DNA from: Thuidium tamariscinum
Taxonomy: Eukaryota > Streptophyta > Bryopsida > Hypnales > Thuidiaceae
DNA: 64,000 bases
Direction of reading: 5' to 3'
Assembly: GCA_947034885.2 (NCBI GenBank)
Contig: OX344750.2
Location: 18,284,053 to 18,348,052, forward strand
A program made the translations under genes and the position numbers. Positions 1 to 24,400 of this stretch are shown piece after piece; position 1 is the stretch's first letter, and every line of letters starts with the position of its first letter. The notes under the pieces were generated by a model. It searched no databases. It saw nothing but the letters and a program-made list of their open reading frames with translations, and was not told the DNA's origin.

Positions 1-2005
1 ATGGAGAAGCGAACTACTTTTCGCAATGTAATGGAGCGAATAGTGAATTTCTCAAGAAGTAGGTGTTTATAGTAGTGATGTTGTAAACGCAAGTGCATAT
101 GTGTCAATGCAACGTGCACGTAGGAAGCTGGAGCGTTGAAGAAAATGGCATTAGTTGTAAATGAATCAAATTTGATGTATGAATGCATAAGTACATGAAG
201 ATATGCAAATGTGAACAGGTCCTTAAGGTATGTGGCACCACTTCAGTGGGATTGCAGAAAAGCACAAGCTCTGTTGAATATGAACAGAACTGAAGTAGGT
301 AGATGGAAATATGTGCACTGAACATATTCAAGTTTTGTTTTTCACGACATCATTTCTAATACAAACCGTGAGACGTTATTTTCGAACAAACTCCTTCGTG
401 GAAGTACTTGTGGATGTTATACGAGAAGCAGTGTACCTATTTTTATGTGGATGTTGTTTGAAAACGTTGATTGTTTCGATTGGATGTCAATGGAAACAAG
501 AACATTCTCATTGGCAGGACCTTTGTTTTCCACTACTCTTGCTTTGTATCAAGAAACAACCACTATAATTTTTGAACCGAACGCATCTTTTATGCAGGTA
601 CTTCTGTGTTGCTTCGAACGTACATTGTTTGAAGCTAACATCCCCCAAAACGAAGGTTTCTTATAGTGTCGGAGATGAAAGGGGATATACATAGAAGTTG
701 TAGAAAGATAGACTTACAAGGTAGGGATTTGATAGTAAGGATGAATTATTTGTATTCACACTTAGGGACAAGAGGTTTGAGACCTTTTACATGTAGACTT
801 CAATACAATAGGTTCAAGTTGTTGAATTGTATTGTAAAGTGTTGCCTTTGCAATTGCTTAGCTTTGAGAAGACAAATAGAAAGAGGTACGCGCTTCCATT
901 GTGATTTTTAATTTTGATTGGATACTTTGAAAGATTGAAGAAGTCCCAATTTATTTATTTTCTCAAATGGAGTAATATTACAATTCCATAATATACAACT
1001 TTGTTGATAAAATTTTCAAAATTTGTTGTTGTAAATTGCTACAAAAATAAACTTGCCTACGACAAGCAAACCTTCCATGAGAATTACCTAAAGAACTATG
1101 CATTAGAGTCTTATATCAAATCATGATAGACTTTTTTGAAAAATGGAATTAGAAATAAATTAGGTTGATTTGTGGCCACAACCAATGCATGGGGAGGTGG
1201 TCATGGAGTTACTAGTGACTAATATAGGACAAATGCACCTTTCTAGTGTAATAAAAAGTTGTTTTACTCCTTCATGTCATGGCCATGTTAGGGGGAAAAT
1301 GTGCCTTGCTTTAGGTGGTAAGATGACTAAAGGAAAAAATCTGATTTTTTTAAGTAATGGCAAAATGACAAATTGCTCATTTTGCTTGTTATAGGTAGGT
1401 TTATCTTACTTTAGGGTACTTTGAATCCAAGAGAAAGTGTATTGACATAATAGAATTAATTGTAAAGTGTTTGCAATGGAAGCCTAGGAATCAAAGTTTC
1501 AAAAAAACATAGGATGAAACTCCTTAGAATACCAAATTTGAGGTCCAAAGGGTTTTGGTGCCTTATTTTTTTTTCTTTTCTACTAAGGCAGAACCATCCA
1601 TTGTTGACCAAAGACCCATATCCAACTTCTAGGATGTAGCTATTTCCAACTAAGGCTAAAAGATATTTTCTATCAAAGCTTGGAATGTAGCTTTTTTCTC
1701 ATTTTTAAGGTTGGCACTAATGAGATCGTGACACATATTATAAAGTGTGCCGGAATTACCAATTGGAAAAGTTGTCTCTTAAGTGATTGGAATTAGAAGA
1801 GTTTAGACATTGGCTATGAGTTTAAAGCACTTTTTGGCTTCCAAATATCATAGTAATTTCAATTTTGAGGATGAAATTATAAAAAATTGGCAATCTATAA
1901 ATTTCCTATCTTTCTACATAGAAGAAAATTGCATTGCATCATACTCTTGACGATCTCTTTCATAGTTGTTTAACCTTAAAGGACAGGCCTATAACAATTG
2001 ATTTA
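1..2005. other. Left-edge intergenic DNA, no gene recognised
   Basis: The first 950 bases are moderately AT-rich and carry only short open frames that overlap in different phases and match nothing I recognise. They could be the untranslated end of a gene lying off the left edge. From about 950 to 2005 the sequence becomes strongly AT-rich with no coding signal. I see no tRNA-like fold or long tandem repeat here. Confidence 0.5.
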
Positions 2006-3330
2006 GAGCCTCATTGTTCATCACCTAGTTTGTTGCCATTTTAAAACTAGATAGTATGAAAATATTTATATTTATTTTTCAGTGATGAAATTATGTGTCT
2101 TGTATACTTCATAAAAAATTTAGATTTTTTTGAGAATTTTCGAAGAAAAATTGAAGAAAAATCATATCAAATGAAAAATTGTTTCAAAAAATCTGAAAAT
2201 TTTACTATGGGTATATATTACAATGATCAACATCATGGTGTAAACTCAATTTCCATGTCATTCTATAATTAGAACTTGATAAACATAGGAAACACATTCA
2301 AAGTTCAAATGGCAATAAAAATTTGAATTTTAGGAATTTTTTCAAAATTTGAATTAGAACATAAACTAGAGTAGATGAACTTCATTTTGTTAGTTGGACT
2401 CAAATTCAAAAAAATATCATTTTTGTATATAAATTTTAGATTTAGAGCAAGAAGTAGCAACAGTTTCTAAAATACACTAAAATGACATATTTTGGGATCC
2501 CTTTTTCTTACTAATTTCTCATTTGCATGAAGACAAACACTAGGAAGGCTCCAAATTCAATTAGGTACTCTTCATAACCCTCCATGAAAGGTCAACAAGT
2601 AAAAAGTGGATGAAAAAAATGCTTTACCTCTTTGTCATCTAAATGCCACAAATTGGCACTGCCAATATAATTGGGTTAAGTGATCAGGCATGGATGGTTC
2701 TACATTATTCTTAGTCAACCTTGTAACGCGAGCAATGCCATTTTGTTGCATGTGGATGACTTTTGCACTAGTGTGGAGGGAGATTGAAAGCAATTTTTCA
2801 TTAGTTTCTTTTTTCTTGACTTTTCACAAAGGATTATAAAGAATATTACTTACTAATTTCCTTTGTAGTCTTCTTAGTCTTTGTTTTCATGTAAATAAGA
2901 AATTAGTAAAATAAATGGATCCCAACAAATGCTACTTTTCAGTGTATTTTGGGAAGTTGTGGCTCCTAGCTCTAAATCTGAAATTCATAGTATTGAATAT
3001 TTCATTGCAATTTGAACTTTGGATAAATTTTTGATGTCTTTTGTACTCTAAATATGGAATGACATGAGATTTGAGTTTGTCCTTGTAATTTATACGGATG
3101 GTGTAATTTTAATATTTTTTTAAAATAATTCTTTATTTGATATGATTTTTTCTTCATTATTTCTTAAAAAATTCTCATAAAAATCAATTTTCATAAAAAA
3201 AATTCTGAAAATTTCGTGGAATTAAAAAGACATGTAGCTTCATCTCTGAAAAATAAACATAAAAAGTTTCATACATATCTAGTTCAAAAATGGCAACAAA
3301 TTGAGTGACGGGCATTGAGGCTTCAAATTA
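2006..3330. mobile_element. Foldback element with about 450-bp inverted arms
   Basis: The left arm (about 2006-2530) reads as a diverged reverse complement of the right arm (about 2885-3330), with a loop of roughly 350 bp. The outer ends match as GAGCCTCATTG followed by a shared GTTTGTTGCCATTTT (left), against the reverse complement of the run ending at 3326. The innermost match is around TGGGATCC and ACTAATTTC at 2494-2515 and 2898-2925. There is no transposase frame, so this is a non-autonomous foldback-type DNA element. The arms are clearly diverged, which suggests an old insertion. The right edge lies only about 150 bp before the GC-rich leader of the ORMDL gene. Exact termini and target duplication are not clear. 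Confidence 0.7.
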
Positions 3331-3479
3331 GTGGTTATAGGCCAAGGTCAGTATTTTATAATGTCTCTACCCCCGCCGTCGATTTTAATTTAATAAGCTT
3401 ATGCCCCCCCCCCTTCACTGCCGTCGATCTTCATATTTTCAAAAGAATTCCCGCCGTTGATCACTCCGCCTCGCTCGCT

Positions 3480-6400
3480 GAGAGATTAGGGTTTCATTGG
3501 GTCGTCTCTCTCATTCATCACGCACCTTTGTCTTTTTGTGAAGTTGAGTGCTGGCACTTTCTGTGAGGAAGGGTTGTGAAGCTCCTGAGAAGAAAACGGA
3601 ACATTACTGGGAACGTCGAAGGAGCCCAAGCGGAGACATTCGTGTGCCAATTCAATCCGTGGACTTGGACTCTAGTAATTTTGTGAGGAGGGCGAGCAGG
3701 GTTTCCAGGTCGGGCAGCGTCGTCGTTGTGGATGCTCGAAGGTCTACCGCTCGAGGTCAGTGATCTCCGTGTTTAGGGTTTCGTGGCGTATTCTTGTTCC
3801 GTGGCGACGTGCTTTACGAGTTTTGCTTCGGAGTTAAGTTTTACGAAGGCTTTGCTTCTAAGGGTGCAAATTTAATTCGAATTCGAAAGTTTCCAAAACT
3901 TTCGACAACCAATTCTTAACATCTGTTTTTTTCTGAAAATTCTTGGGGTTCCACTTTCTGTTTGTGCAATCGAGGTTGTATGTAGGCCCATTCGCATTTA
4001 CCTTCAGTAGGGAGATTTTTGAGGGTTGCTTTCTTTGCAGTTTTGGTGTAGTATGGCTGGTTCTGCTTCAGCAGATCCCCAACCTATTTCTCCGTCGCAT
4101 GATACCAAGTCTGAGAACATGTAAGCACGAGCTGCTGACCCTACTTAATTCCAACGGCTTCGTTTTGTGGAAATTCTCATTGGACGAGCAATAGACTGCT
4201 CCTGTCCGCTCCTGTCCGCTCCTGTCCGATCTTATTGCAGTAGATCATTGGGTCGAAACAGTAGATCATGCAATCGGATGTCACCTAATTCCATAGGGGA
4301 CCGAAGTGAAAGCGCTGGTGGATTGTTTCGTGATTTGATAAGCTCGATGCCACTTTCAGGTTCACTGTGGCTCGCTGAGTTTGTCATGTCGTCGGGCAAA
4401 TGGGTAGGATGTTGCGCGGGTGGATATGATGTGCGCATTGCCCTGTATCGGGCATATCTGCTGGGTGGACTGACGCTGATGATTGGCTGAGCTTTCTATC
4501 TTGTAGATCGAGTAAGCGGCTACATTGTCTGATAAAATTGAGGAAAAGAATTCAGTCTACGGGTTATTTAGAAAAAAATGCAATTCAAGAAGGAAATGGT
4601 CTGAGGATATCGCGCGCTGGCTGCTTAATTGTTAATGGGTGGCGTATAGAGCAATCGTGTGATGGAGATTAATCTCTTTATTTATCTCGATTTCGATGTT
4701 CAGAGATTAATCGCTCGTTAGAATAATTGAGAGGGTGTTGTTTCGGATTTTCAGTCGACGATGGAATTTATGAATAGAATCACCGTCAGCGTCTTCGAAA
4801 AGGCAATTTCGGAGCCTGCACCAGTCCTATGCTTCTCTTATGATCCGAATTACCTGTATTTGGAGGTCTCGTAGGGTTTAGTCTCCAGATTTCCGAGTGA
4901 AGGAGATTTCGGCCCGTTACGAGTGCTTGGATCCCCTGTGTGGGCAAGTGGCTTTTGTTAACTGAAGCTAAGGCGGAGTTTGCAGTGATTGGTCTTTTTT
5001 TTCCAGTTGGAATGATTTGAGCTCCAATCTCTGCTGTGCCTTCTATTTGTAGACGATCGTGAATGATTCTGTTAATAACATTATTAATAATTATTGCAAT
5101 CGTTAGATTGACGGACTCAGATTAGGCACGAAGCAGGAATATTGGAGGAGTGTGTGCTGGCGTTGCTGTGGATAGGGGATTCATTAGGCTGGCGTTTGCT
5201 CCGATCGACGTGGTAAGCCAAGCATCCCCCGCTTTGATCGAATGGTCATATGTTTCTAGGATTCTTGGATTCGAGCTCTACTTCATCACCCTGCGCGGTT
5301 TGATGCGAACATTGGCAATGAATTCATACTTAAATAATGACGTGCCAGTGAATCTCGACTGTGAGTTTATCGTTTTCATGCTCAAGTTGGTGCGGTATAT
5401 CGGTTGGTCGATTTCGTTTTCAGGAATATTGTTTCCTGTTTTAGACTGGTAATTGGTTAATCTTCGAGGAGACCATGAGTTCGATCAGTGATGTGCTACT
5501 GATTGACCTTCCAGTGGCCGTCCGTCCGGTCAATCGGCTAGGAACTAAGTCACACAATATGCCTTCGTATTATGAGAACTGCTCTTTCAAATGCTGCTAG
5601 GGGCACAAATGGTTGTAGACCTGATATGAGGATGTGGAGAAACTTCCAGACATTGTAGGTGGCAGTATCTCACAATGCCAAATGAATGTAATGCAGGATT
5701 CTGTTGCGGGGAGGGCGAGCAGGGTTTCCAGGTCAGGTCGGGTAGCGTCGTCGTTGTGGGTGCTCGAAGGTCTGACGCTCAAGGTCAGTGAACTCCCGTT
5801 TTCTTGTTCTGTGGCGACGTGCTTTACGAGGTTTGCTTCGGCGTTAGGTTTTAAGAAGGCTTTGCCTCTGGTGGTGCTAATTTAATTCAAATGTGAAATT
5901 TCCAAAACTTTCGATAGCCAATTCTTAACATCTGTTTCTTTTGTAAATTCCTGGGGTTCCACTTGCTGTTTGTGCAATTGCGGTTGTGTGTAGGCCCATT
6001 GGCATTAAGCTGTAGCTGGGAGATTTTGAGAGTTGTTTTCTTTGCAGTTTTGGTGTAGTATGGCTGGTTCTGCTCCAGCAGATCCTCAACCTATTTCTCC
6101 GTCGCATGGTACCAAATCTGAGAACATGTAAGCATGAGCTGCTGACCCTACTTAATTCCAACGGCTTCGTTTTGTGGAAATTCTCATTGGACGCTCCTGT
6201 CCGATCTTATTGCTTATGACTTTGCCTGGTCCTCATAGGATTACAGAAGGGCTGCTGCATCGTTGGGGTAGAAGTGCGGAGGACTTTGTAGAGACTGTAC
6301 CTTCACCTGGAGGGCTTTACGTAAAAGTGGTGCCGCCTCCCGATACAAACAAGAATACCTCTTGGTTCCAGTATCCCGGCATTTGGACGACATATATTCT

Positions 6401-8605: not shown

Positions 8606-9965
8606 ACTCTAAATTGTCATTCTTGTTGTTATCACCTAAAATATCAAGAATAACTGTTTTTTTAGAATCTAACTATAGGATCTTGTACTTTACGATGTCA
8701 AAAAAATTTCATGAAGTTTGATTGTATGGAAGATATGAGCATTCAAAGTTGGGAAAAAAAATTGAACTTTGATTAGTAATTTCAAATGATTGCATTGTAG
8801 AATTTGAAACAAAAAGAATTGTATATTGAAGTATTGAGTTGAGATCCTTAGAAAAAAATTTCACAAAAAACACACTTGACTCTCACTCTTCAAAAAATTG
8901 TTAAGTATAAGTAGGTTCAAGATTGAAAAAAAACTAAATTATTAATAGCTATAAGATGAGATTAAAACACAATAACTCCAACTATGAGATTGTTCAAGAA
9001 AGAGAACCTTTCTTTTTCCAACACTTTTTTGGGATAAATTGTAAAAATTACATTAAAAAATGAATCCTATAAATTATCTCATATTTTTTCAAGAAGATGT
9101 TTAGATTGCCCCCAAAACAAGATTGCCTTTAATTTTTTCATTACTAGTCTAAATAGAATCAATCAAAGCTTTGCATGTAGACAATAAAAGAATATTTTAG
9201 AAAAAGAAATTTTAAAATTTGGTTTCAACTTTTTATAATTTTATATATGTTGCCTACCAAGTTGAATTCTAGGCTTTTTGTAGTTAACTTTTACACCCAT
9301 GTACTAATTGGAATAAAATTTACAATAACAGTTGATTAATTTTTCTATCTTATGAAAAAGTTTCACAAAGTTTCACAAAGAATGAGGTCATAGGAACTTG
9401 TCCCAAACCCATTTTGTCCTCTAAAAGGACAATCGTCCTTTAGAGGTTAAAAATAGGTTTTGACTACAATTTATCTCTCTTAGAATTTGAATATTGTACC
9501 CTACTAGCAAGTTCAACTCATCAACAAAGATTATTTATTTGAAGTCCAAAGGTAAGGTTAGGCAAGATTAAAATAAATTTATGATATTTAAACAACCATT
9601 TAAAATTGAATAAGTTATAGGCATCTAAGTTGATGTAAATATTTCATTTGATGGTTTTAAAGGAGATAAGAGGTTATTTGTTCATGAAATAGATAGAATA
9701 TTGAGTCAAGCTTACTATAAATAGCAAGCACATGTCCCTAGGGAAGGATAATGCGATTTTCCTTCAATTATTGCAATTTTCAAGTATTAAATAAAACATG
9801 GAGATAATTGCTTTTTAAACTAGGCAAGAACTATTAGAATTATTTATTGAAAAAGTTGCTGATAAGATAAGGTAGTAATTATGGAAACATCCATAATTGT
9901 TAGTGTACACATTCTTTGATACTAGAGTTACCTTAAAGTGTCTCCAAAAGTACCTTGAAACATTA

Positions 9966-10289
9966 GAAGAGATTTGAAGGCATGAAGAAGTTGCGAGTTA
10001 TTTTGAGTTCCTAAGGTGTGGGAACTTGTCACATCACTAATATGACGTGGTACAAACATTGTCAAGTCAAAAAGTTATTTATTTATTTATAATAATAATT
10101 AATTTTTTTAATTCAGTTTTAGGTTTAGTAGTATTTTTTAGAAATTTTGGAATTTTTTTTTCTTAAATTCGAAAATTTGGAAATTTAGCCCATAATGGGC
10201 TAGTTCCACTAGTTCCTAATTTTTGGCTAAGTAAGGAACAATGTAGGAGACAACCCTGAAATGGGCTCTAAAAGCCCTCAATTCTCATC
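9966..10289. mobile_element. TA-flanked MITE, member 1
   Basis: A TA dinucleotide lies on each side (9964-9965 and 10290-10291). The left end reads GAAGAGATTTGAAGGC. The right end, read in reverse complement, is GATGAGAATTGAGGGC. The interior contains a GACGTGGT-like motif and an AT-rich core, and there is no reading frame. It belongs to the same family as the elements at 14923, 23104, 24401, 47763, 50353 and 51855. TA target sites fit the Tc1/mariner type, although the ends are not a textbook Stowaway sequence. Confidence 0.7.
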
Positions 10290-10306
10290 TAATGCCACTA
10301 TCTTAA

Positions 10307-11045
10307 CCCCTAAATGCCTAAGTTGCGTTTTTTGGCATTATAAATTTTTTGGGCAGCTCACTACAAATGGAGTTTTTATTTTTTTTCTTCAAAATTTTCA
10401 CACAACATGTGTCCAAGGAGTAGCTTCAAGGCCCAACAATTTTTGTAACTTTTGACTACACGGTTAAGAAGCTATGGCATGATATGTCATTTTGTTTGAA
10501 GGGAGGGCAGCCTAGGCAGCTGAAAAAACTTCTTTACAAAAACTTTTTTTCAAAAGTAAAATTTCAAATTGATTCTTTAGGTTTTTATAGACATGGGAAG
10601 CTTTGGATCATTCCATTTGGATTCATGAGTCAAAAGTTATGAGGAATTTTAGTTTGTGGGGAGGTATGGAGTTCCAAAAATTCCATACCTGCCCGCAAAC
10701 TAAAATTGCTCATAACTTTTGACTCTTTAATCCAAATGGGATGAAACAAAGTATCCTATGTCTGTAAAAACCTAAAGAATCAATTTGAAATTTCACTTTT
10801 GAAAAAAAAGTTTTTTTAAAGAAGTTTTTTCAGCTGCCCAGGCTGCCCTCCGAGTAAAGAAAACAACATATCATGCCTTAACTTTTTTAACCACAAAGTC
10901 AAAAGTTACAAAAATTGTTGGGCCTTAAATCTACTCCTTGGACACATCTTGTATAAAAATTTCAGAAAAAACAAACAAACTCCATTCGTAGTGAACTGCC
11001 CAAAAAATTTATAATGCCAAAAAATGCACCCTAGGGCTTTAAGGG
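10307..11045. mobile_element. TTAA-flanked palindromic element, copy 1
   Basis: This 739-bp element lies between TTAA at 10303-10306 and TTAA at 11046-11049. The whole element is one long inverted repeat with arms of about 365 bp and a centre near 10675, around GGTATGGAGTTCC. Ends are CCCCTAAATGCC and, in reverse complement, CCCTTAAAGCC. The TTAA target and CCC-beginning termini recall piggyBac-type elements. No transposase is present. A transcript through it would fold into a long hairpin. Its right flank is the right half of a Mutator-like element (see 11050-11185); its left flank is the end of TA-flanked member 1. Confidence 0.85.
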
Positions 11046-11049
11046 TTAA

Positions 11050-11185
11050 TAGTGTATGTATGCTATAAGTACCTATGTTATAAGTATTTATGATATAAAC
11101 ACCTTCAATGGTTATATGATATTCACTTATATGTATGCTCAAGGCTTACATGCTTACACTTTCATGCTCACATACTAGCACCAAT
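11050..11185. mobile_element. Right half of a Mutator-like MITE
   Basis: The 136 bp match the right part of the complete element at 12356-12581, starting at TAGTGTAT and ending in GCTCACATACTAGC. The left part is missing at this site and is replaced by the TTAA palindrome. The base run AATGTCATTGT directly follows at 11186-11196. The same 11 bases directly precede the left half at 23502, as expected of a target duplication belonging to one original insertion. Confidence 0.75.
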
Positions 11186-11196
11186 AATGTCATTGT

Positions 11197-12060
11197 TATC
11201 AAGTATTCATAAATTATTAATTATTAATTAATTAATTAATTAATTTTAAATAAATTAAATAATCCTATTTTCTTTAAGTTTTTTTTTCACTTTATTTCTT
11301 GAATAACTTTTGACCCAAATTTTTTTAGGTCTTACATTTTTAATGATATGGTTTTTTGCTATTATACTAATTATCTATATTTTATTTTCAATATTTTTCT
11401 CCAAAAGTCATTATTTAGTTAATATTTCCTCAAATGCTACAAAAATCTATAAGTCTTTCTCACAATAACCCTAATTTCATTTCATATATGTTAGAAGGAG
11501 GATTGTGTACAATCAAATCATTTGAAAATGAAGATTTTAACTCTTTCAGTTGTCACCAGCCCTTTTTTTTTGGGCGATATGGTGCCAGAAAGCACCATTT
11601 CAAAAAAACATCTTTTTTTCGCCAGAAAAGTATCGAAAAAAGGTTACTTTTTTTGCCAGAAATTTACCATTTTTATGAAAACCGTGGATGAAATCGCCAA
11701 ATTTAGATGATAAAGTGTATGAATATAACTATAAAGTATTTTTTAGTGCAAAAGTTGGATGAATGTAGAAATACAATGCTTCACCAAATTTTAAATGATT
11801 GCCATGTTGGCACTTTCTCAAAAAGTCAAAAAAAAAGGGCTAGTCATTTTATAGATTCAAAGGTTCTTGTAAATTCTAATAAAGTATCACAAATTCTAGG
11901 TAGTGATTCAATATATTCAATTATCAAAACATACTATAAATATAGATTTCAAATTTTTTGTTCATTTAAATTGGTTTCTATTAATGTACATTTTCAAAAA
12001 TCTTTCAAAATGGTGCATTTCAAATCTTACGGTAGTGGAGTTTAAAAAAATAGAGTGAGA
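11197..12060. other. AT-rich DNA with a TTAA/TAAT microsatellite and dispersed repeat
   Basis: The stretch begins with a simple (TTAA)n tract around 11215-11250. The part from 11585 to 11845 is a diverged copy of the repeat at 8262-8512. Short frames in it follow the repeat and show no codon bias or known motif. No gene is called. Confidence 0.5.
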
Positions 12061-12355
12061 TTATTCATCCTAGTCATATACACAAAATATAATATTTTTC
12101 CTAGCCAACGTAGTAAACTTGTGACTCCATTTAGTGTCATGTAATTGTAATAAAATGATTGAGCACGATTTGAATCAAATAAAACTGACAACTAATGATT
12201 GATTAGAGATGATTGAGAATATTCATCTTTGTATAACCAAACTTAGTCAAATGAATCAAAATGTCTAAAAGGGTCTCAAATGGAGGTATTGAAATTCATT
12301 TGGAATATGTGTTGAAAACAAAAAAGGCCGAAAATGATCAATTGAACTCTCACAT

Positions 12356-12581
12356 GAGGGTTGCTATTATGTGAGCATAAAAGTGTGAGCCTAGAAGACT
12401 ATACACCTATGATATAAGTGTCTATATTATAATAACCTTCTATACTAATAGTGTATATATACTATAAGTACTTATAATATAGGTGTTTATGTTATAAACA
12501 CCTTCAATGGTTGCATGATACATATATATATGCTCAAGGCTCACATGTTGACACTTTGATGCTCACATACTAGCCCGTTGA
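12356..12581. mobile_element. Mutator-like MITE, complete copy
   Basis: The element is 226 bp and is flanked by CTCTCACAT (12347-12355) and CTCCCACAT (12582-12590), a 9-bp target duplication with one mismatch. Ends are inverted: GCTATTATGTGAGCAT on the left, and GCTAGTATGTGAGCAT read in reverse complement on the right. Duplications of 9-11 bp are typical of Mutator superfamily elements. There is no frame inside. It serves as a near-empty reference for the palindrome insertion, with CTAATAGTG at the place where other copies have TTAATAGTG. Confidence 0.8.
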
Positions 12582-13471
12582 CTCCCACATTATAATGTTT
12601 AGAGTGACTTGTCTACTTTGACTACACTTGTGAATAAAGAATGTACTAGTCAACCTTGTCTTTTACTCTTGACTATAGTTTTAAGCCTCAATCTTTAAAA
12701 TTTAATTTTTTTGGTGGTGATTCAAATTCAAAAGTTTGTTCAATAAACTAAATTGACTTTTAAGAGTTTTGAAATTTAAAATTGAATTAAAAGAAGAATA
12801 AGAGACTAATATGTACTTAGTTGTCTATTGATATAAATAGGCACATGATTGAAACCATCTATAAGCTTTACAAGTTGAATTTCCAAAAGTCTGAAACAAA
12901 TATATCTTTTACTTACTATTGAATATTGTTGAAAGTTTTCAATTTAATACATAGAATGACATAAAATAGAAACAAATAGGATCAAAACTTACTAAAGACT
13001 ATATATATATATTTGTCAAAACAAAATTAATATGGGTGTAAAATAAAAGCCTAAATAAGTGCCAATAGTAAGTCTTTTTTAAAGTCTTGAATGAACATAT
13101 CATGGAGATAAATTAACAAATGTTATGTTTGTAGTAACTAACTTTTTATGTTTTAACTTCTCAAAGATAACTTGAGCTCTCCTATTTGAAATATGAATTC
13201 AATTTTTTCAAGCATGATGAGAAACAAAATATAATAGGTTTGAACTTTTTTCCACTATAAATTGCCCCTTGCAAGTCCACAAAAGACTCATCACTAACAA
13301 TTACTTGCATTTGTCTACAAACACTCTTCTACAAAATATTTACATTGTGTTGCCCTTTTGTAATTAGATTGCCTAATTTAACATAAAAATATATCATGAA
13401 AAAATAGATTTCAAAATATCACACTTCCTAGTCAACATTGTATACTTGCCACTATAGGCTTAGTATAAGTC

Positions 13472-13708
13472 AACGGTGCTAGTATGTGAGCATCAAAGTG
13501 TCAACATTTGAGCCTTGAGCATATATATAAGTATGTATCATGCAACCATTGAAGGTGTTTATAACATAAACACTTATATTATAGGTACTTATAATATATA
13601 TATACTATTAATATAGAAGGTTATTATAATATAGACACTTATATCATAGGTGTATAGTCTTCTAGGCTCATAGGCTCATACTTTTATGCTCACATAATAG
13701 CAATTCTC
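13472..13708. mobile_element. Mutator-like MITE, complete inverted copy
   Basis: The element is 237 bp in the opposite orientation to 12356-12581. It is flanked by a perfect 11-bp direct repeat, TAGTATAAGTC, at 13461-13471 and 13709-13719. Its interior contains an intact TTAA at 13608-13611, exactly the position where the 739-bp palindromes sit in the split copy. This makes it an empty-site reference. Confidence 0.85.
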
Positions 13709-14922
13709 TAGTATAAGTCATCTAATACCTCAAAAATGAATACCATTAGAAACAACATAATTGTCAACTATTGTGGTTGATTGGAGATGATTGAAAATAG
13801 TCATTTTTGTATGACTAAACTTAGCCAAATGAATCAAAATATGCAAGGAAGGACCAAATCAAGGTCCCAAAACTCATTTAGAATGTCCACTTAGAAACAA
13901 AAGGATCCAAAATGATCAAGGATGACTTCCTTTGTGAGTGCAAAATGTGCAAGGTAACCTTGTCCTTCACACTTGACCATAGTTGTAACCTTACTCATAA
14001 AAGAACCATTTATTTGCAATGATTCAAACTTAGAATTCTTTTTTGTATTTTTAATTTTTAAAATGGAATTGACATTCAAAAGTGTTGAAATTTAAGATTA
14101 TATTTGAGAAATAATAGGTGAATACTATTTAGTGGCCCGTTGGTACCAATATGCACATGATTGAATCCATCTATATCTCTAACATTGAAGCAAAAGCACA
14201 TGTTGCTTTCTATTGAATAATGTTGTAACCTTTGAGTACCTAGCCCATGTTCACTCAAATCCAAACCCTTTTACATTCATTCCAATTAAATTAAAGTAGA
14301 ACCACCCATAACCGATCATCTAAGGTATTTTAGACATGATTTGGTATAGTGTAAGGCAAAGCAAATATTTCTAGAGTTGTAATGATAGAGATGATACGGA
14401 TTGCAAAAACTTTGGTAATTTTATTGCATAAATTGAAATTACTATGAATTTTGAAAGGCAAAAGTTGGGCTTGACCTATAACCAACATCTAAAGTCATCC
14501 AATTTTGATCATCCAAGAATTATTATTCCACTCATTGCTTCATACTTTCTTGCTTATTTATGTATCATTAAGTTGCTAGTTCAAACCTTGAAAAAGTACA
14601 AAACACGCAATTCAATGAAAAAATGAAAATCTATTCCAACCTTGGTTGGAAATATTGTACCCTATTGATTGGTTATGGGGTGGTGATTGGAAATGGGTGG
14701 TTCTACCTTATCACCTAAGAAAAGATTCACACTAATTGACCTATTGGTAGTAGAGACATGTTTGGAAGTATATAGAAAGGGACAAGTCCTTTGACCTTAC
14801 CATTGACAAGATTATAAGAGTCAAATAAGGACATCTTTCGCAATATTTTCACCATTGGGGCACAACAAAAGGACAAGAATAGAAACAAATGAAAACCAAT
14901 TTGTCAAGGGATACATTCATTT

Positions 14923-15201
14923 GAAGAAATTAGAGGCCTCTAAGAGATAGCGAGTTCGTGTAGTTTAAGAGGGTAGAAATTACAGAATCGTAGGAATCTG
15001 ATGTAGCCACAATAGTGCCAGGTCATTAAATTATTTTTTTTGAAATTTTTTCAGACTTCCTTTTGCATTTCAGGACCCCAATTTTATTTTATTTTATTTA
15101 TTATAATTATAATTATTTTATAAATTTTGGCTTAACAATAGTCAACTATTTTAGGAACTATTTCGACCTACAACACTTCTTTGAAGACCTCAAATTTCAT
15201 T
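14923..15201. mobile_element. TA-flanked MITE, member 2 (degenerate)
   Basis: The left end GAAGAAATTAGAGGCC pairs with the right end, which in reverse complement reads AATGAAATTTGAGGTC. TA follows on the right, while the left flank is TT, presumably mutated. The interior retains a GTGCCAGGTCATTAA motif and an AT-rich tract, as in other family members. Confidence 0.55.
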
Positions 15202-15539
15202 TAATGTGCCAAAGATAAAGCAAAAAAAAATGGGATTCAAAAGTGCATGTAAATGCCCATAGTGAGCCTTTTTCAAAACCTCAAACTAGCATATCATAGG
15301 AATATATGATTTCCATTATTAATTCTTCCAATCACCCTTGCAAGGCCCACAAAAGACTTGCTACTCACAATTGCTTACACTTGCACTCATCTACAAAATA
15401 TTCTCAATAGGTTACTCATCCATAATTAGATTGCCTAATTTAACATACAGGCATATGATGAAAAATTAGATTCTAAAAATGTACAGTGTGAGTACATATT
15501 AAAAACTCAAGAGTATTGTACTCCTCATTCTAACAATTA

Positions 15540-16402
15540 TTCATATTAGTGTAAGAACTCGAGAAAATAGTGTGAGTCTGAGGGGTACAGTAACCGAGGG
15601 AGAATATTCATTTAGCTAAAGAGGAAACGCCAGGAAAGTCTGCATTCAAACCTCAAGACAGATCGTGTGTTTCGGCAGATGATTAGCGTCCACATCCAGC
15701 AAGTTGCCCAAAATTTCCTGGGTGGATTGCCGCGTTATGCCGCGGCATCTATGCAAGATGTTCCGGTCAGAGTGTAATACTCACTCCGTAAGTAACAAAG
15801 GGTAGTTTCTCTCACAGGACTACAGAAGTACCGGCAGAAGTTTTGCTACACGATTTTGCAATTGAAAATAGAAATCAACGGAGGAATCAGAGAATAGTAT
15901 TAGCAAATAGGGAATAGCGTATCAGCGTCACAAATTGCGTTTCCTCTTGGCAATTCTACTCTAACTGAATCAGATAAGAGGGCGGTACGCTACGTCGCAG
16001 ATTCCCAGAGCAACCGAGCAGGCCCGCCGCCAAGAATGACTGCCTCTCCCGAGCAGGACTGATGCGGACGAACGTTCGGACGAAAGTTCGAGGAAGCTTT
16101 GGAGATGGCCACCATCCTATCTGAGTATACAGTATAAAGGAGATCCGTAACAGATTGTTGGTGCCATTAAGGTAACGCATTTTTCATTTGACAGGTGCCG
16201 GGCAATGCGAGGCTGGTGTAACTACTCACAACCATAGATCTGACAGTGTTGCGGTACTCTCAGAATTAGTTCGGTGGCTACATCACATCGGTGATCGGTT
16301 AAACATTTTGCGATTAATTTGAGTTAGTTTAATTTCTTGCAAGTGTGGACTTTGCGTGTACTGTTACCTGAATTCTAGAGTCGCTGACCCTCGAGCGTGG
16401 CC
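15540..16402 (+). promoter_or_regulatory. Upstream region of the cysteine synthase gene
   Basis: The composition shifts from repeat-like to gene-like at about 15540. The segment has no long frame on the + strand. The bases just before the start codon (GCGTGGCCATGGCT) make a good plant initiation context. It probably contains the promoter and 5' untranslated region. No single element can be assigned from sequence alone. Confidence 0.5.
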
Positions 16403-18439
16403 ATGGCTCCTGCCGCAACCACTCTGCAATCCTGGAGTTTCGAACATCGGGCCGCGCCAATGGAGGAAACCATTTTCAGCAACGTTGATCAGGTACTAAA
16501 TTTCATTTCATTGTTTTTGCAATTGATTCGATTGATAGAACAGGATAGAAGCCGTCAACTTTTGATTGAGGGTTCTCTGAAAGCGTAACCTGTCGAGGAA
16601 GTTTGTGGGTTCGTAGAATTAGCTAGTCTGTGTGAGTAAGTAATTTGTGTGGAGCAATGCCTTGTGGCGATCGCAGGTCATCGGCGGGACGGCCCTGGTG
16701 GAAGTGGCGAAAGTTACCAAAGCCGAAGGCGCGGTGGCGCGAGTTGTGGCGAAATTAGAGAATCTGCAACCTGGCGGCTCTGTAAAAGATCGCATTGGAC
16801 TTGGGTACGTAGACAGAGTGACAAGCGGGTTGTAGCACGATTGTTCGTGAAATTGTTCGATTGCTTGGCACTGTGGTCCTAGTGAAGAGTTTCTAGTCCA
16901 AGGGTTTGATGTACACCTACTTGAAGAATTTGGACTTCTTGACACGGGTGAGAGTCTGTCCGCATTGCAGGATGGTATTGGATGCGGAGGAGAAGGGGCT
17001 CATAACGCCAGGCAAGACCGTGTTGATCGAACCCACGAGCGGCAACACGGGTGTGGCATTGGCCATGGTGGCCCGCAAAAGAGGTTACAAGGTCATACTC
17101 GTCATGCCCAGCTCCATGTCCTTGGAACGCCGCATGATCCTCCGGGCTCTGGACGCCGAAATCGTTCTCTCAGGTGCAATAATAACTCTCTCTTGTGTCT
17201 GCTTGGCTTGGAAGGGGTACAGATGCTTGGAATGCTTGCAATGGAAGCAAGATTAGCAACTGTATATAACGCGACCTCAGCTAGCTTTGCCAGATTATTT
17301 TGATGTGTGATCACTGAGTTTCGCAATTGGTGGTTCTTTCGACAGAGGCATCCGGTGGATTTACGGAAGCTTTGAAGGTCACGGAGGAGCTTCTTGCGAA
17401 GACTCCGAACTCGCACATGCTTTGCCAATTCAAGAACCCAGCGAACCCCGACACTCATTTCCGCTCAACTGGTAAGTTACCACCCCTGTTACTGCTTTTC
17501 AATCACGAAACATCATCAACATTACAACACTGTGATGCGTAGATTCGAAGTTTCTCGTTGATTCAGGCTGATGTTTGATGCTTCGAATGTAGGGCCGGAG
17601 ATTTGGAACGCAACAGCAGGGAAGGTTGACATTCTCGTGTCGGGAGTGGGGACCGGCGGAACCGTAACGGGCGCTGGACGCTACCTCAAAAGCAAAAACC
17701 CTGCGGTCCAGATTGTGGCAGTGGAGCCAGCGGAGAGCGCCGTCCTTTCGGGTACGTTAGTAACTTCCTCGCGCGACCATATCCTTGCAGTTCAAATCCG
17801 AAATCTGCTGATATTCAAAGTTCTTTCTGTCGCTGGAGCTGCAAAGCAATCACTCTCAAAGTTCAGTTGGAATCGTATGAAACTTCCACATCGATGATGA
17901 TAATGTTAGGACTCCTGGATTGAAGTTAACAGACGTGTCCATTGCGTGTTGTGCAGGAGGCCAAAAAGGTCCGCACAAGATCATGGGCATCGGAGCAGGG
18001 TTTATTCCCGACACTCTGGACGTGACTGTCTTAGACCGAGTGATAGCAGTGCACAGTGATGAGGCCATCGAGATGGCTCGCAGGCTGCACGCTGAAGATG
18101 GTCTGCTCGTGGGCATCTCTTCCGGTGCTGCTTTCGCCGCAGCTCTCAAGGTTTTATCCCTTTCTCCCTCAAACTTCCTGCACTAGCGCAAAGCTCTTTC
18201 AATGCTATTCACGGGTTCAGGAGTTCCTGTCTTGTCGCTGGACAATTTCTCAAAGGACCAATCTTTGCCCTCCTGTTTCCGAGCAGATTGCGAAGGAGCC
18301 AGCGAACGCCGGGAAACTCATCGTGGTGGTGCTCCCCAGTGGAGCGGAGCGGTATCTTTCCACGGCCCTCTTTGAGGGCATCAAACATGAGTGCGAAACG
18401 ATGACTTGCACCAAGTCCACCGGCGGACTTGCTCCTTGA
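16403..18439 (+). CDS. Cysteine synthase / O-acetylserine (thiol) lyase family
   Basis: PLP-dependent enzyme that joins sulfide to O-acetylserine to make cysteine. Seven exons: 16403-16492, 16677-16804, 16971-17173, 17346-17471, 17593-17751, 17957-18150 and 18287-18439. All are GT-AG and phase-consistent, totalling 1,053 nt and 350 residues. Key elements are the PLP lysine Lys67 in [10 protein letters not shown], the substrate loop TSGNTG (95-100), the phosphate-binding GTGGT (202-206), IGAGFIP, and the C-terminal [10 protein letters not shown]. The usual IGNTPLV near the N terminus reads IGGTALV here, losing the Asn and Pro. The N-terminal extension is short and does not look like a plastid or mitochondrial transit peptide, so a cytosolic enzyme is inferred. 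Beta-cyanoalanine synthase or a related activity cannot be excluded, because these members share all the main motifs. An AATAAA lies at 18860-18865. Confidence 0.95.
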
Positions 18440-19850
18440 AGACCATTGGCGTGCATTTTGGATAGTACACTCCGTCTGATATTTCTCCAGATTTTTCATG
18501 AGACTCTGGTTTCTGAAATTCGAGTCCATTGGACGTCCTTTTGAAGTTTCTCTTGCTTTGTTCGTCAAGATGACATATCTTCCGGCTCAGGTGATCTCTT
18601 ACGGATCTTCAAAGTAGATTGAGAATGTTTCCATCAGTAGACAATCATACAGCATGGCGAGTATATTTTTGAGTGAATCAAACCTACTTGGCCTGCCCAT
18701 TTCAGGAGGAATATAGGTCAGTAAAACAAACAGATTCTTGGTGAGAATTGAGTAGTTTATGATTGAAATACAGGCAGCCAGAGTGCTACAATAGATTAGG
18801 AGTGATAAAAAAAGCGATTTATCCCCTCAAAGTTTGCACAGCCTCATGTGTAACTCTTCAATAAAATGATCTCTGAATCTCTGTATCAGTTCTCACAATC
18901 TGGGCAGTCGATATCAGCAGCGTTACCTGAAAATTCACATGAACATGGCAATCCCCCCCGAGTGATCAACATTCTAATTCGTGTGAGTAACTCGTTTGCT
19001 GAAGAATGGAAATCGGTATCTACAGCCGGAAAGAATGCATGCAAGTCCAAATCATCTCACCAATTGTGAACCAAAGAGCTTCCCAGCTACGAACTCTTTC
19101 CTTGCACGCAAACTCCGTCAAACTCTCATATCGTGAACATTACACTGATTGCAAAAACGTTTGAACAGTGAAACACAATATCATTCCGCAGTTGACACTC
19201 AGCTTTGGCACGGGAATAACGTTTTTGAACGTGTTAGGTGAGAATTGATGAGTGTTTGCTGAAGTAAGTTAAGTTCCAGCGAGAATTTTACTGTAATTTT
19301 GTCTGAGGAGACGTACATTAACACGAAGCATCCTCCAAAGCGTTGCTAAAACATTGCTACAGATGTTCTAAACACTGGTACCAAAGCATCTTCCAAAACG
19401 TTGCTACCCACCCACCCAATTGTAGTAGTAGTGAAATCATCAAATTAACTTTCAATGGATGGCCGCAGTCAGCCAGGGAGCAGGTTAGGTCAAAAGACAT
19501 TAAAACTCTAACCTCAGAAGACCGTAAGAGAACGAAACATGCACCAAAAAAACTAAAACATTAAACATACATGAACAAAGAAGTTAACCCTTGAAGGACG
19601 GACCGGTGGCCGCGGAAATCATGCATTTTGATACCTTGTGACATCACCTACTTTGAAAAAGCCAAATATATGTATTGGAAGTCAAAGCACTGTAGAAGAT
19701 CTTCCCTTTCCACTCCCAATACCGAGGATGAAAAGTTGCATTTCCATCCTGGAAGGAAAGATTCTTTGTCATTCAGCAGACGCCAAACGTCCGCAACGTC
19801 ATTCAAGGGTTAAGCTAGAAATCACAACCAATTAAACATAAAGTTTCTCG
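18440..19850. other. Cysteine synthase 3' region and downstream spacer
   Basis: The untranslated end probably runs to just beyond the AATAAA at 18860. After it, the spacer keeps a moderate base composition to about 19840 but shows no credible coding exon. A short imperfect direct repeat is visible (AAGCATCCTCCAAAGCGTTGCTA and AAGCATCTTCCAAAACGTTG) at 19326-19410. Confidence 0.5.
18860..18865 (+). terminator. Probable polyadenylation signal
   Basis: AATAAA occurs 421 bases after the cysteine synthase stop codon, in the first T/A-rich stretch downstream. It is the best candidate signal for that transcript. The cleavage site itself is not identifiable. Confidence 0.45.
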
Positions 19851-21340
19851 CCACTATTTACTATAGTTGTTCATGAGCAAATTTCAACCACAGTTGGTTG
19901 GACAAGTGAAATATTATGTTGAATAATGCATAATTGAAAGCAAACCAATCTTTGATCCATATGAAGTCATTTTTTAACATATGTTCTTCAAATTTTGACT
20001 CCACAAGTGAACATAGATCCCCTGAGTGCAAATATTAGGTGTTTTTTTTAAGCATGTACTAAAATCAAACACTATATTGTCTTAAACTTTTTGGATAGCC
20101 TAGGTAACTTTGAATAGCATAGGCAAAACTTCTCCTATAATTTTGAAATATCACAACTATGTACATAATTTATATGATACAAAATGCAAATGTAAAATGT
20201 AAAATAAATTTATATTATAAAAAATTTTACTACAAGAGAGGTTAAAGTCTATTAGCCCTATAAGGCAAGATTAGAAAGAAAAATAACTTTTTCTTCTCAC
20301 TTCAAACATAATAATCTTTCAATCTATTATTTTGATAAAGTTTCGAAAAAAATTCTACACATTCCTATAGTAGTTCAATACAAATTTGTATAGTTGAATT
20401 TTTTTTAACTTTTTAGTTTTCTCATTTTTCCTCACTGCCCTAAGAACTAAAAAGTGACCATTTTTACACAATTTGTGCCAAAGATGTGCCAAATTGTTCT
20501 TTTCCAATTGATCATCAATCTATGCTTATAATAAGAGTAAAATTTTTAAGTTCTCAATCTTTAGATCATTTATCTTACATCACCACAAAGTTAGATTTGA
20601 TATGTAAATGAAGGATTAAATGAATTTCACACTTGGGGAGATCATTTAAATGAATCATGTGTATTTAAGTGATTTTTTGGCCCCCTACATCCTTTTTTAA
20701 AAACTATGATTTCAACTTATAATTTTGAACTTTGCATAATATTGACTATAGGTTTCTATTGCCAAAAAATTTCAACTCAAATAAGATATGAAATTATTTT
20801 TACAATAAGTTGAAAAATGAATTAAAATGGCATGATTTTCAATTTTATTGATAGAGAATGCATTTAGATGACCATGGCATGAATATTCAAGAAAAATGAA
20901 CTTTCAATAGAAATTTATTTTTTCATTTTTAGACAATTTATTCTTATATTACAAAATAGGGGTGTGAAAGTATTTTCAACTCTATAGTGTACTTTTTTAA
21001 TTAAATATAATTAATACATAAAAATATCAATAATTAAAAACATAAACTTTCAAAGTAAGAAAAGTTTGCTCATATATAATGGACACTCTAAGTAATGTCC
21101 CTAGACTTTCGCAACTCCTAATTGAAAGATTCCACTCACTTCAAGTAATGTATGGTGAAAAATGGTACTCCATATTAATTTTTGTTTTATAATAATATTG
21201 ACCCAAATATGAATATAGATTTTTTCCACCAAATTCAACTTAATGTAAAAGACGTCATTCAAAATATTAAGATGTGGTTTGAAATGCCTTTGTTGACGAG
21301 AATTTATTTTTAAAAATTTGAAAATACTTTTTCAGTAATA
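19851..21340. other. AT-rich intergenic DNA, nothing recognised
   Basis: The stretch is very AT-rich with frequent stops in all frames. It has no tandem repeats of note, no conserved termini and no tRNA-like segment. Confidence 0.5.
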
Positions 21341-21348
21341 AACCTTAC

Positions 21349-21850
21349 TGCCCAATGGAGTGCAGTATCACCCAAAAAATTGGATAATTTTACATTGATT
21401 CCAACATCCAATAACAATTGTGCTATTTCTTTGTATCCACCTTTAATTGCCTTCATTCTGCATTGTATAAATTAAAAATGTTATTTTATGAAAACAAGTT
21501 TTAATTAAAATTTTAAAATGTTAACTATACAATTAATGATCTTAAATTCAAATGAAATTTTAGAAAACTTTTTTTGGTGACAATTTCAATACATTTATGC
21601 ATGCACTCATTAATAAATTAAATATATAATTTGAATTTGTAAAATAGGTATGAATGTATAAGATATGTTAGAAATTAGGGTACAATGCTGAATCGCCATT
21701 TTGTGGGTCTTGAATATCAATGCCTTCACCACGTTCATATGCAAGCCTAACTTCTTCTATGCTTCCTTCATCAGCAGCTTCACACATAGTCTTGCCAATA
21801 ATTTTTTCTCCAAATAAATCTTCTTCTTCGTTGTTTGCCTTTATAAGCAA
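21349..21850 (-). pseudogene. Ankyrin-repeat gene fragment, two exons
   Basis: Read on the - strand, an exon ending at 21684 encodes an acidic segment followed by a typical ankyrin start (EAADEGSIEEVRLAYERG and then NGDSAL). After a GT-AG intron (21683 down to 21458), a second exon, 21457-21349, continues in phase with KGGYKEIAQLLLDVG and GDTALHWA, and ends at a GTAAGG donor. The joined reading gives about two ankyrin repeats. No further exons were found on either side, and there is no clear start codon at the 5' end, where an AG acceptor-like site lies near 21840. It is most likely a relic or a piece of a larger gene whose other exons have decayed. Ankyrin repeats only indicate protein-protein binding. 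Confidence 0.6.
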
Positions 21851-23103
21851 ACAAAAAATAATTGATAAAAGAATGCCACATTAGAATCTCTAATATGAAG
21901 TATATTTGTATTATATACTAAAGTTGTGAAATGTTGTACTATTGAAGCCAAATTATATATGATAAAAAAATTATGATATATTTATTTATCATAATTTATT
22001 GCTTAAAATCACCACACTTTCAAATCTTAAAGAAACAACATGTATAAGATATTTTAACTTGAATATTTTTTTAATTATTAGCTCCTACATTTAAAATGAA
22101 TCCTATACTAGGTCTCACATAGTCACATTGTTTCTAAAGTAACTTCTAGTATACAATTGTTAGGTTTCTATGACTCTAAAAGAATTAATAAGTGTAGTTG
22201 AAAAAAACTCAATTTCTTTTCATGTTATCAATGGTCAATATTCAATAACTATGATAAAAAGAAAATCCAATTTTTGAATTTTGAATTTTGAACTAAGCAT
22301 TGATAAGGTTCATGGAAAATCAAACAACATAGGTAGATTGAAAGATTATTATTAAAGTTGCATTTTTGCATTTGAATGATTTGTCATTTAGATTTTTTTG
22401 ATAATTAAGGATTACTTTAAGGTTTAAGGTAAGATTTCAATTTTTGTTACATTAGGAATATATTGATAGGTTTTTTGTATAAATTTCAAAAAGTAGACAA
22501 CTTTGTAATGTATTGTACAAGACTACAAGTTGACAACTAAGACACTAAGTATCTCTAAAAGTAATAGATTGTTTCATTTACAATAAAAGTCTTGTTTCAT
22601 TTTTCATTAGATAAATATCAATGATGAATTCTAGTTTAGACTCAGGTATTTGAAACAAGTAAAAATTTGTTAACAGAGGGTTTTTAAAAAGTCACACTTT
22701 TCAATAGAAATATTCAAAAGTTTAGAAGTTTTATGTACAAATTATAATATTCAAGTTATAGAGGGTGATTGCAAGAAGATTGATCCTTTTTTATTTCAAG
22801 TAATATGGTGGACTTGTCATGTGCTATAACTTTTGAACATAGTGAACTTGAAATTTTTTATTAGACATGGATAGTTCTATTTTAATCATAATTTTCATTT
22901 TTTTAAAATAAAAATAAATTTTATATTTTAAAGTCAATTTTTCTAATTTTTTGCACTCTTAAGATTTAGGTGTGTTTGTTAAAACTAGGGATAACTCAAT
23001 ATTATTGATGTAGAGCTAAAATTTTTGTAGTCTATTTCAATAGTAGGTAGGTATGTTCCTAATAGAAGAAGCTTCTAAAAGTTTATTGTTTCACATGTGA
23101 ATA
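21851..23103. other. AT-rich intergenic DNA
   Basis: No coding exon, RNA gene or delimited element was recognised. The region is mostly A/T runs with scattered short repeats. Confidence 0.5.
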
Positions 23104-23424
23104 AAATGAAATTTGAAGGCAAGAAGAGACTATGAGGTTTGAGACTATAGGAACTTTGGAAACAATGCCACATTAGCACTTTGATGTGGCTAAGATTGTG
23201 CTACATCATATATTAATTAAATTAATTTTTAAATAATTTTTTGAAAGAAAATAATTTTTTAAATTTTGTTTTCAATTTTTTAGTATTTTTGGAAATTTTT
23301 GGAAAAAAACAACCAGAAATTCAAAAAATCAAGCTATCAAGGCTCGTTGGTAGTTTTTGGATAGTATAGGGAACTATTGGGGGAACAATCCTAAAATAAT
23401 CTCTTCTTACCTTCAAATTTCATC
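23104..23424. mobile_element. TA-flanked MITE, member 3
   Basis: Flanking TA occurs at 23102-23103 and 23425-23426. Ends are ATGAAATTTGAAGGCAAG on the left and, in reverse complement, GATGAAATTTGAAGGTAAG on the right. The interior has GCCACATTAGCACTTTGATGTGG and an AT-rich core ending in a TAGGGAACTATTG motif, shared with the member at 50353. Confidence 0.75.
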
Positions 23425-23501
23425 TAATGGGATTCCTAGAAAGCACACATTTGAATATTGTAGATGGTTTCATAATCATTCTTTTGGTGAAATGTCATTG
23501 T

Positions 23502-23598
23502 GAGGGTTGCTATTATGTGAGCATAAAAGTGTGAGCCTATACGCCTAGAAGACTATATACCTATGATATAAGTGTCTATATTATAGTAACCTTTTATG
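23502..23598. mobile_element. Left half of a Mutator-like MITE
   Basis: The 97 bp match the left part of the complete element at 12356-12581, starting at GAGGGTTGCTATTATGTG. The match stops precisely at a TTAA, where the second palindrome begins. AATGTCATTGT directly precedes it at 23491-23501. The matching right half and the same 11-bp run are at 11050-11196. The lengths 97 and 136 add up to 233, within the 226-237 range of the complete copies. Confidence 0.75.
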
Positions 23599-23602
23599 TT
23601 AA

Positions 23603-24340
23603 CCCCTAAAGCCTTGAGGTGCATTTTTTGGAATTATAAATTTTTTGGGCAGCTCACTACAAATGGAGTTTTTATTTATTTTTGCTGAAATTTTTACACA
23701 AGATGTGCCAAAGGAGTAGCTTTAAGGGCCAACAATTTTCGTAACTTTTGACTTTTTGGTTAAAAAGTTATGGCATGATATGTTGTTTTCTTTACTCGGA
23801 GGGCAGCCTGGGCAGCTGAAAAAACTTCTTTAAAAAACTTTTTTTTCAAAAGTAAAATTTCAAATTGATTCTTTAGGTTTTTACAAACATAGGAAACTTT
23901 GTTTCATCCCATTCGAATTAAAGAGTCAAAAGTTATGAGCAATTTTAGTTTGTGGGTAGGTATGGTTTTTTCGAACTCCATACCTACCCACAAACTAAAA
24001 TTCCTCATAACTTTTGACTCATGAATCCAAATGGAATGATCCAAAGCTTTCCATGTCTGTAAAAACTAAAAGAATCAATTTGAAATTTTACTTTTGAAAA
24101 AAAGTTTTTTTAAAGAAGTTTTTTCAGCTGCCCAGGCTGCCCTCCGAGTAAAGAAAACAACATATCATGCCATAACTTCTTAACTGTGTAGTCAAAAGTT
24201 CCAAAAACTGTTGGGCCTTGAAGCTACTCCTTGGACACATGTTGTGTGAAAATTTTGAAGAAAATGAATAAAAACTCCATTCATAGTGAGCTGCCCAAAA
24301 AATTTATAATGCCAAAAAACACAGCTTAGGCATTTAGGGG
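23603..24340. mobile_element. TTAA-flanked palindromic element, copy 2
   Basis: This 738-bp copy of the element at 10307 is bounded by TTAA at 23599-23602 and by GTAA (one change from TTAA) at 24341-24344. Its arms are almost self-complementary, with a centre near 23965. Both arms include GGGCAGCTCACTACAAATGGAG-like sequence and the run AGCTGCCCAGGCTGCCCTCC or its complement. There is no coding capacity. Confidence 0.85.
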
Positions 24341-24400
24341 GTAATGCTTAATTGTCATTGGTGGGCTTTAATTTTTAAAAAATTTGGTGTGAGAATCATA

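Follow-up and report, generated by a model that had tools for sequence, protein, structure and literature searches.

We analysed a 64-kb stretch of the Thuidium tamariscinum genome (C2:18284053-18348052, hereafter the window), from an assembly of 363 Mb in 19 contigs. Between two TTAA-bounded palindromes of about 747 bp each lies a block that contains pieces of a cysteine synthase-like gene and that carries, at its opposite ends, the two halves of a Mutator-like miniature inverted-repeat transposable element (MITE), each with a copy of an 11-bp target-site duplication (TSD). A joined counterpart of this block is found on the same contig, 18.3 Mb away (C2:36.593-36.607 Mb), and we refer to that locus as the donor. 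The palindromes belong to a family with two subfamilies, A and B. All junctions, the block order and the palindromes are known here from assembled sequence alone. The features that the analysis uses are as follows, in window coordinates.

9880-9961, forward strand: left side of the target, a dispersed repeat (X) whose other copies continue directly into 24345
9962-10296 (end approximate), no strand: separate repeat (Y) within X, beside the palindrome site, from repeat comparison
10303-11049, no strand: palindrome 1, a hybrid with left arm B (resident) and right arm A (donor type); switch at 10644-10708
11050-11185, forward strand: right half of the Mutator-like MITE, from sequence, genome search and alignment to intact MITEs
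11186-11196, forward strand: right TSD copy, 11 bp, AATGTCATTGT, from exact-match search and donor comparison
11197-17480, forward strand: right flank of the donor MITE, matching C2:36596279 to ~36604.8 kb at ~3.3% divergence
16677-18403, forward strand: cysteine synthase (O-acetylserine thiol-lyase)-like gene pieces, Pfam PALP (PF00291), six exon-like peptides
17480-20137, forward strand: right flank continued, 7.9% diverged from the donor, possibly another tandem unit
20138-21144, forward strand: filler between right-flank and left-flank sequence, not in the donor; closure here or upstream
21145-23490, forward strand: left flank of the donor MITE, matching C2:36592996 to ~36595.3 kb
23491-23501, forward strand: left TSD copy of the MITE, from exact-match search
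23502-23598, forward strand: left half of the Mutator-like MITE, from genome search, donor comparison and alignment to intact MITEs
23599-24344, no strand: palindrome 2, the reciprocal hybrid, with left arm A (donor type) and right arm B; switch at 23940-24003
24345-24398, forward strand: right side of the target, X continued, from repeat comparison

One MITE split over the two ends of the block

A sequence-only reading of the window had proposed that the right half of the MITE adjoins palindrome 1, that the left half adjoins palindrome 2, and that both halves end at TTAA against the palindromes. These coordinates hold, with the small correction that palindrome 2 now has GTAA in place of TTAA at its outermost position. 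The same reading held that the halves sum to one element, and indeed their 234-bp join aligns over almost its full length with two intact MITEs that lie in the block, at 85.7% identity with the one at 12356-12574 and at 88.2% with the one at 13475-13703 (inverted). These two intact MITEs lie in opposite orientation ~0.9 kb apart, and their counterparts are present at the donor.

The identical 11-bp run that had been noticed in the outer flanks, AATGTCATTGT, occurs exactly twice on the two strands of the window, at 11186 and 23491, where 0.18 occurrences are expected by chance; no shuffle of the search gave two. Such a run might be a piece of a wider repeat, which the sequence-only reading had named as a concern. 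In our genome searches the best 40 candidates were scored per query, and for a query of 147 bases comprising the right half and flank, these were the best 40 of 2137. Full coverage is given only by the window itself and by C2:36596132-36596278 (96%). Among the other 38 scored matches, 37 end at or before base 134, which is the end of the element, and one, with 86% identity, reaches base 140. We therefore rejected the wider-repeat explanation, as only the window and the donor extend through the run among the 40 matches scored.

The joined counterpart at 36.6 Mb

It had been predicted that sequence left of 23491 would be found joined to sequence right of 11196. This arrangement is present in the same genome, with the element, at the donor, where the order in one piece is left flank, left MITE half, a single palindrome, right MITE half and right flank. 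The donor palindrome is a single TTAA palindrome of 728 bp that splits the MITE; the matches to the two halves lie 725 bp apart, with one palindrome of the same family between them. Both TSDs are present, the right copy with one substitution (GATGTCATTGT). For a query of the left half with 100 bp of flank, the only full-length match besides itself, among the best 40 scored, is C2:36595206-36595406 (97%). Among the places found, the MITE is whole, with both TSD copies around one palindrome, only at 36.6 Mb, so that the proposed single insertion, disrupted by one TTAA palindrome, can be seen there intact.

The correspondence extends into the flanks, for which we listed donor matches of at least 300 bp and at least 88% identity and, in a second comparison, matches at 36.590-36.612 Mb only. 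Window positions 11050-11556 and 11847 to ~20137 track the donor from 36596133 to ~36607399, with gaps and insertions, and a window-only repeat lies at ~11557-11838 within the right flank; positions 21145-23598 track 36592996-36595404. In a piecewise alignment, the block diverges from the donor by 4.4% over 10,328 aligned bases (Kimura two-parameter distance, K2P, 0.0457). As read from these alignments, the ancestral order is that of the donor, and the window block represents a circularly permuted copy of this locus, in agreement with the permutation suggested earlier.

It is important to consider an assembly error at 18.29 Mb, by which a diverged copy, tandem or circular, was placed inside a palindrome. 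Assembly is difficult across long palindromes, and the locus is known from the assembly. However, the divergence just given, together with the block's own insertions, means that the block is not a duplicated contig, and two misjoins would need to yield exactly reciprocal hybrid palindromes, as described below. We regard such an artefact as very unlikely.

Reciprocal hybrid palindromes and a probable exchange at their centres

To compare the palindromes we assembled a set of 62 elements, consisting of the 20 best matches to palindrome 1, 39 matches to the left arm of palindrome 2 (1 shared), the donor palindrome, another from the donor region and the window's 2; the comparison palindromes are the best-scoring matches among thousands of candidates, taken without random sampling. 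The family splits into subfamilies A and B with support 1.0 and a branch of 0.064 among 44 elements, and with support 0.998 and a branch of 0.065 among all 62. These 62 comprise 51 two-armed copies of a single subfamily (32 A, 2 of them with a shortened second arm, and 19 B), 9 one-armed copies and 2 mixed ones. The mixed copies, 2 of the 53 with two arms, are exclusively the window's palindromes 1 and 2, and they are reciprocal: in both, the inner arm is A like the donor and the outer arm is B. Arm-to-arm identity is also lower in this pair than in any other of the 44 elements (86.8 and 87.2%, the next being 90.2%); the donor palindrome has 92% and sampled B elements have 94-100%.

At 24 diagnostic sites, palindrome 1 reads BBBBBBBBBBBB AAAAAAAAABAA, so that all 12 left-hand sites are B and 11 of the 12 right-hand sites are A. 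Palindrome 2 reads AAAAAAAAAAAA BAAABBBBBBBB, with A at all 12 left-hand sites and B at 9 of the 12 right-hand ones. In both hybrids the switch falls within the central 64 bp, around the hairpin centre, and the central stretches of the palindromes fold into near-complete hairpins (z about -15 to -16). The letters of the loop suggest that the switch lies at the hairpin tip itself; the interval that can be claimed is the 64 bp.

The B outer arms help to distinguish routes by which the block could have moved. Foldback (FB) composite transposons are stretches of DNA bounded by inverted-repeat elements, and the block is likewise bounded by such elements. A transposition of this type, in which the block moved whole with the palindromes as its transposon ends, would fit two palindromic TTAA elements around the block, TTAA (on the right GTAA) outside them and a single target site. 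However, a moved composite would bring its own ends, and the donor palindrome is A on both arms while the outer arms here are B, so that the ends are recombinants between donor and resident; moreover, a permuted source would still be needed. We rejected FB composite transposition on the basis of the outer arms, and consider it extremely improbable. The same arms bear on the two routes that the sequence-only reading had left side by side. A duplication confined to the donor would leave A-type outer arms; since they are B-type, integration of a circle through the palindromes fits better, while tandem duplication followed by loss fits less well.

The target site points in the same direction. In four other copies of repeat X (L082, L084, L085 and L086), the sequence runs up to that of position 9961 and then directly into that of 24345, with four other bases at the position of the window's TTAA. 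Because the outer flanks are contiguous in these copies, the palindromes and the block between them occupy one former site. The outer arms share 12 variants relative to the B consensus (leaving out an A-type patch in palindrome 2); between the two arms of one B element this number ranges from 0 to 13, and its maximum among 684 arm pairs of different B elements is 11. On the question of whether there was one resident palindrome, the acceptor-site flanks, as they are assembled, decide better than this sharing of variants.

A further X copy (L083, C3:27789023-27789874) has, at ~401, palindrome-end-like sequence adjoining TTAA, 4 bases from the window's insertion point. This junction is apparently an independent insertion.

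We consider it probable, at roughly 0.78, that a donor-derived circle was exchanged into a resident B palindrome by reciprocal exchange at or near the palindrome centres. A circular DNA of ~13 kb would have been made from the locus now at C2:36.593-36.607 Mb, carrying the MITE together with the subfamily-A palindrome between its halves, and the cysteine synthase-like gene. The entry of this circle at 18.29 Mb would have been a reciprocal exchange in which its palindrome was the partner of a subfamily-B palindrome already present in one repeat copy there, the exchange point lying at or very near both palindrome centres. Such a central exchange would leave complementary hybrids (B+A and A+B) flanking the block, with the MITE halves at its opposite ends. 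As assembled, the sequence shows that the block is permuted, that the donor keeps the ancestral order, that the hybrids are reciprocal with their switches in the centre, and that the outer flanks come from one site. We infer that the travelling form was a free circle. As to the cause, we lean towards cruciform extrusion followed by breakage at the hairpin tip, rather than an ordinary crossover.

The behaviour of other family members is relevant to this last point. Nine one-armed A copies (L093-L101, on C5, C2, C8, C7, C1, C9, C2, C4 and C3) all end within the hairpin loop and continue into nine different sequences beyond it. In a sample that was selected for a full first arm, the second arm is incomplete in 11 copies; 9 of these stop in the loop, while the other 2 break off at different positions. 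For three of the nine one-armed copies, no second arm of comparable identity was found within the 6 kb of sequence examined; L113 has a more distant copy (72%) that resembles an arm and lies in direct orientation. The loop, in the copies sampled, thus presents itself as a recurrent site of opening, through breakage or favoured insertion. Together with the empty site, the loop-ended copies shift the odds slightly towards exchange at the centre.

The same circle might instead have entered by an ordinary homologous (Campbell-type) crossover between dispersed repeats ~88% alike, with the central position being accidental. The palindromes are indeed long and similar repeats, and the exchange was conservative, with no clear loss at the loop. 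However, a uniformly placed event would hit the central 64 of about 748 bp in ~9% of cases, and interruption at the loop is seen in other copies too, in the 9 of 11 just described. We judge an accidental central crossover unlikely, although it deserves to be taken seriously.

Which palindrome supplied the inner arms can be addressed in two ways. The right arm of palindrome 1 and the donor right arm have 3 rare variants in common, compared to a maximum of 2 with 44 other A arms; the left arm of palindrome 2 has 2 in common with each donor arm, and at most 1 with other A arms. Arm-level best matches alone fail to pick out the donor among the A copies. The contiguity of the inner arms with the MITE halves and flanks is, at the level of sequence, a stronger argument that these arms are the donor's than is the sharing of rare variants.

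Several observations weigh against exchange of a donor circle at the palindrome centres. With a 17-site test, the right arm of palindrome 2 scores 11/17 B and that of palindrome 1 scores 14/17 A. The A sites in the B right arm of palindrome 2 cluster in a single A-type patch at ~24125-24180, which is 98% like that palindrome's own left arm; it looks like hairpin-guided correction after the exchange. The left arm of palindrome 1 shares 14 variants with one arm of an unrelated copy (L044), against 12 with the right arm of palindrome 2. The left arm of palindrome 2 has equal numbers of rare variants in common with either donor arm, so the corresponding arm is not singled out there. Divergence between the inner arms and those of the donor is 7.7 and 8.9%, compared with ~3% in most of the flanks. 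B loops differ among copies, so the switch is firmly placed only within the 64 bp, and no small symmetric deletion, of the kind seen in human cases, is visible at the exchange point. In addition, one of the nine loop-ended copies (L111, C8:3712434-3718434) is a palindrome opened at the loop whose second arm lies ~5.1 kb away (insert 370-5471). The insert has inverted ends CAGGGCTTTTG...CAAAAGCCCTG and an 8-bp direct repeat, GTATGGTT, at both seams, which identifies it as a transposon; by its features we take it to be hAT-like. The opening of L111 is a transposon insertion, so that the loop may owe part of its openings to preferred insertion there and not to breakage. Finally, at the junction where the circle would be expected to close, ~1 kb (20138-21144) has no donor counterpart.

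This filler contains the remainder of an old dispersed repeat (to ~20490), whose first part sits at the donor, and an inserted element with terminal inverted repeats (TIRs) at ~20634-21101, shortened in its right part. We rejected the possibility that the filler is present whole elsewhere, as its pieces match old dispersed repeats; within the donor region it has three short weak matches. The donor L boundary sequence (L028:2300-3000) gave no match but itself.

Upstream of the filler, divergence from the donor is 3.3% up to ~17.48 kb, a point that lies inside the gene, and 7.9% beyond it, a step that none of 500 block shuffles reaches; 20 of 33 gap events lie at or past 17.1 kb. The stretch concerned spans window 17100-20137 and C2:36604.4-36607.4 kb. 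For the more diverged 3' half, the best other match is the donor copy (90%), followed by the tandem copy (84%), the donor having two tandem cysteine synthase-like copies (L029-L030, at C2:36603395-36605783 and 36609624-36612143) that are 80% alike. The circle may simply have closed through recombination of one unit with another, in which case 17.5-21.14 kb would derive from a neighbouring unit since lost at the donor. Gene conversion at the donor is an alternative explanation of the step.

These tandem units also raise the idea that a tandem duplication at the donor freed a linear block, bounded by two palindrome centres, that was joined into a broken resident palindrome with no circle involved. 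Such a block would produce the same hybrid palindromes, and the step near 17.5 kb suggests recombination between units. However, two breaks at exactly matching palindromes would be required, and the necessary tandem copy of the MITE and palindrome is absent from the 90 kb of donor region examined, in which self-matches of at least 250 bp were listed. In our estimation, transfer of a linear block is quite unlikely.

Known systems, gene content and neighbouring features

Duplications mediated by circular DNA are already known. Human circle-mediated duplications (cSDPs) show the same permutation, and the report on them describes only microhomology and short indels at resolved insertion points; its authors ask how circles integrate without homologous recombination, posing the circles' route back into chromosomes as an open question (PMC7450558). 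Cattle KIT colour-sidedness and tilapia vasa are further circular-DNA-mediated duplications, as cited in PMC7450558 and PMC3420103. As in cSDPs, a donor order A-B/C-D becomes B-A/D-C in the copy, and the copy lies megabases from the donor. Unlike in cSDPs, both insertion seams here sit inside two palindromes of one repeat family.

The hybrids also recall translocations at human palindromic AT-rich repeats (PATRRs). According to a review (PMC4940405), breakage is always at the palindrome centre, PATRR-bearing plasmids fuse at the centre through end joining that does not involve replication, and there is coordination between the two derivative junctions. On this account both systems have palindromes as partners, exchange at their centres and reciprocal hybrid products. 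They differ in that one partner here would be a circle, so that reciprocal exchange amounts to insertion; in that the palindromes are copies of one dispersed TTAA family, with no clear small central deletion; and in that the organism is a plant. In the open-access literature that we searched, we found no paper joining palindrome, cruciform, extrachromosomal circular DNA (eccDNA) or other circular DNA, and integration.

At this locus the donor, the resident site and the product can be read at single-palindrome resolution, with both seams at palindrome centres, and the finding ties the integration of circles to the exchange at palindrome centres described for translocations in humans. A screen for any long-read genome follows from it as well, in which one would look for palindromes with arms of unlike subfamily and for palindromes interrupted in the loop. 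Tentatively, the TTAA palindromes of ~750 bp could be genome-wide docking sites, such that a circle carrying any one of them might enter any of the others by exchange at the tip of the hairpin; this is possible, though doubtful. With equal reserve, one could imagine that other DNA has been captured too, and that the palindromes drive long-distance gene duplication without a dedicated transposase.

The sequence-only reading placed a cysteine synthase gene in the block, and the PALP-family pieces at 16677-18403 bear this out. The six exon-like peptides match plant-type cysteine synthases, and they are gene pieces recognized from sequence alone rather than a full gene model. The best structural match is 4aec, a mitochondrial cysteine synthase entry, which is presumably the Arabidopsis enzyme. 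Compared with the donor copy, none of the six peptides is broken by a frame-breaking gap, and the pieces have 12 synonymous and 25 non-synonymous differences (dS 0.053, dN 0.037).

Other features of the window are mentioned for completeness. A window-only insertion at ~19573-19836 has ends TTAACCCTTGA...TCAAGGGTTAA; it is bounded by TTAA, and its termini resemble those of the palindromes. On the reverse strand, an open frame at 37119-37802 matches Pfam Upf2 (E 4.8e-36) and another at 43989-44486 matches Pfam MIF4G below the cut-off; these are probably exons of a UPF2 gene. Lastly, a repeat pair at 48015-48933 and 54368-55274 is 80% alike and also has a ~78% match to C2:36.551-36.554 Mb, near the donor.

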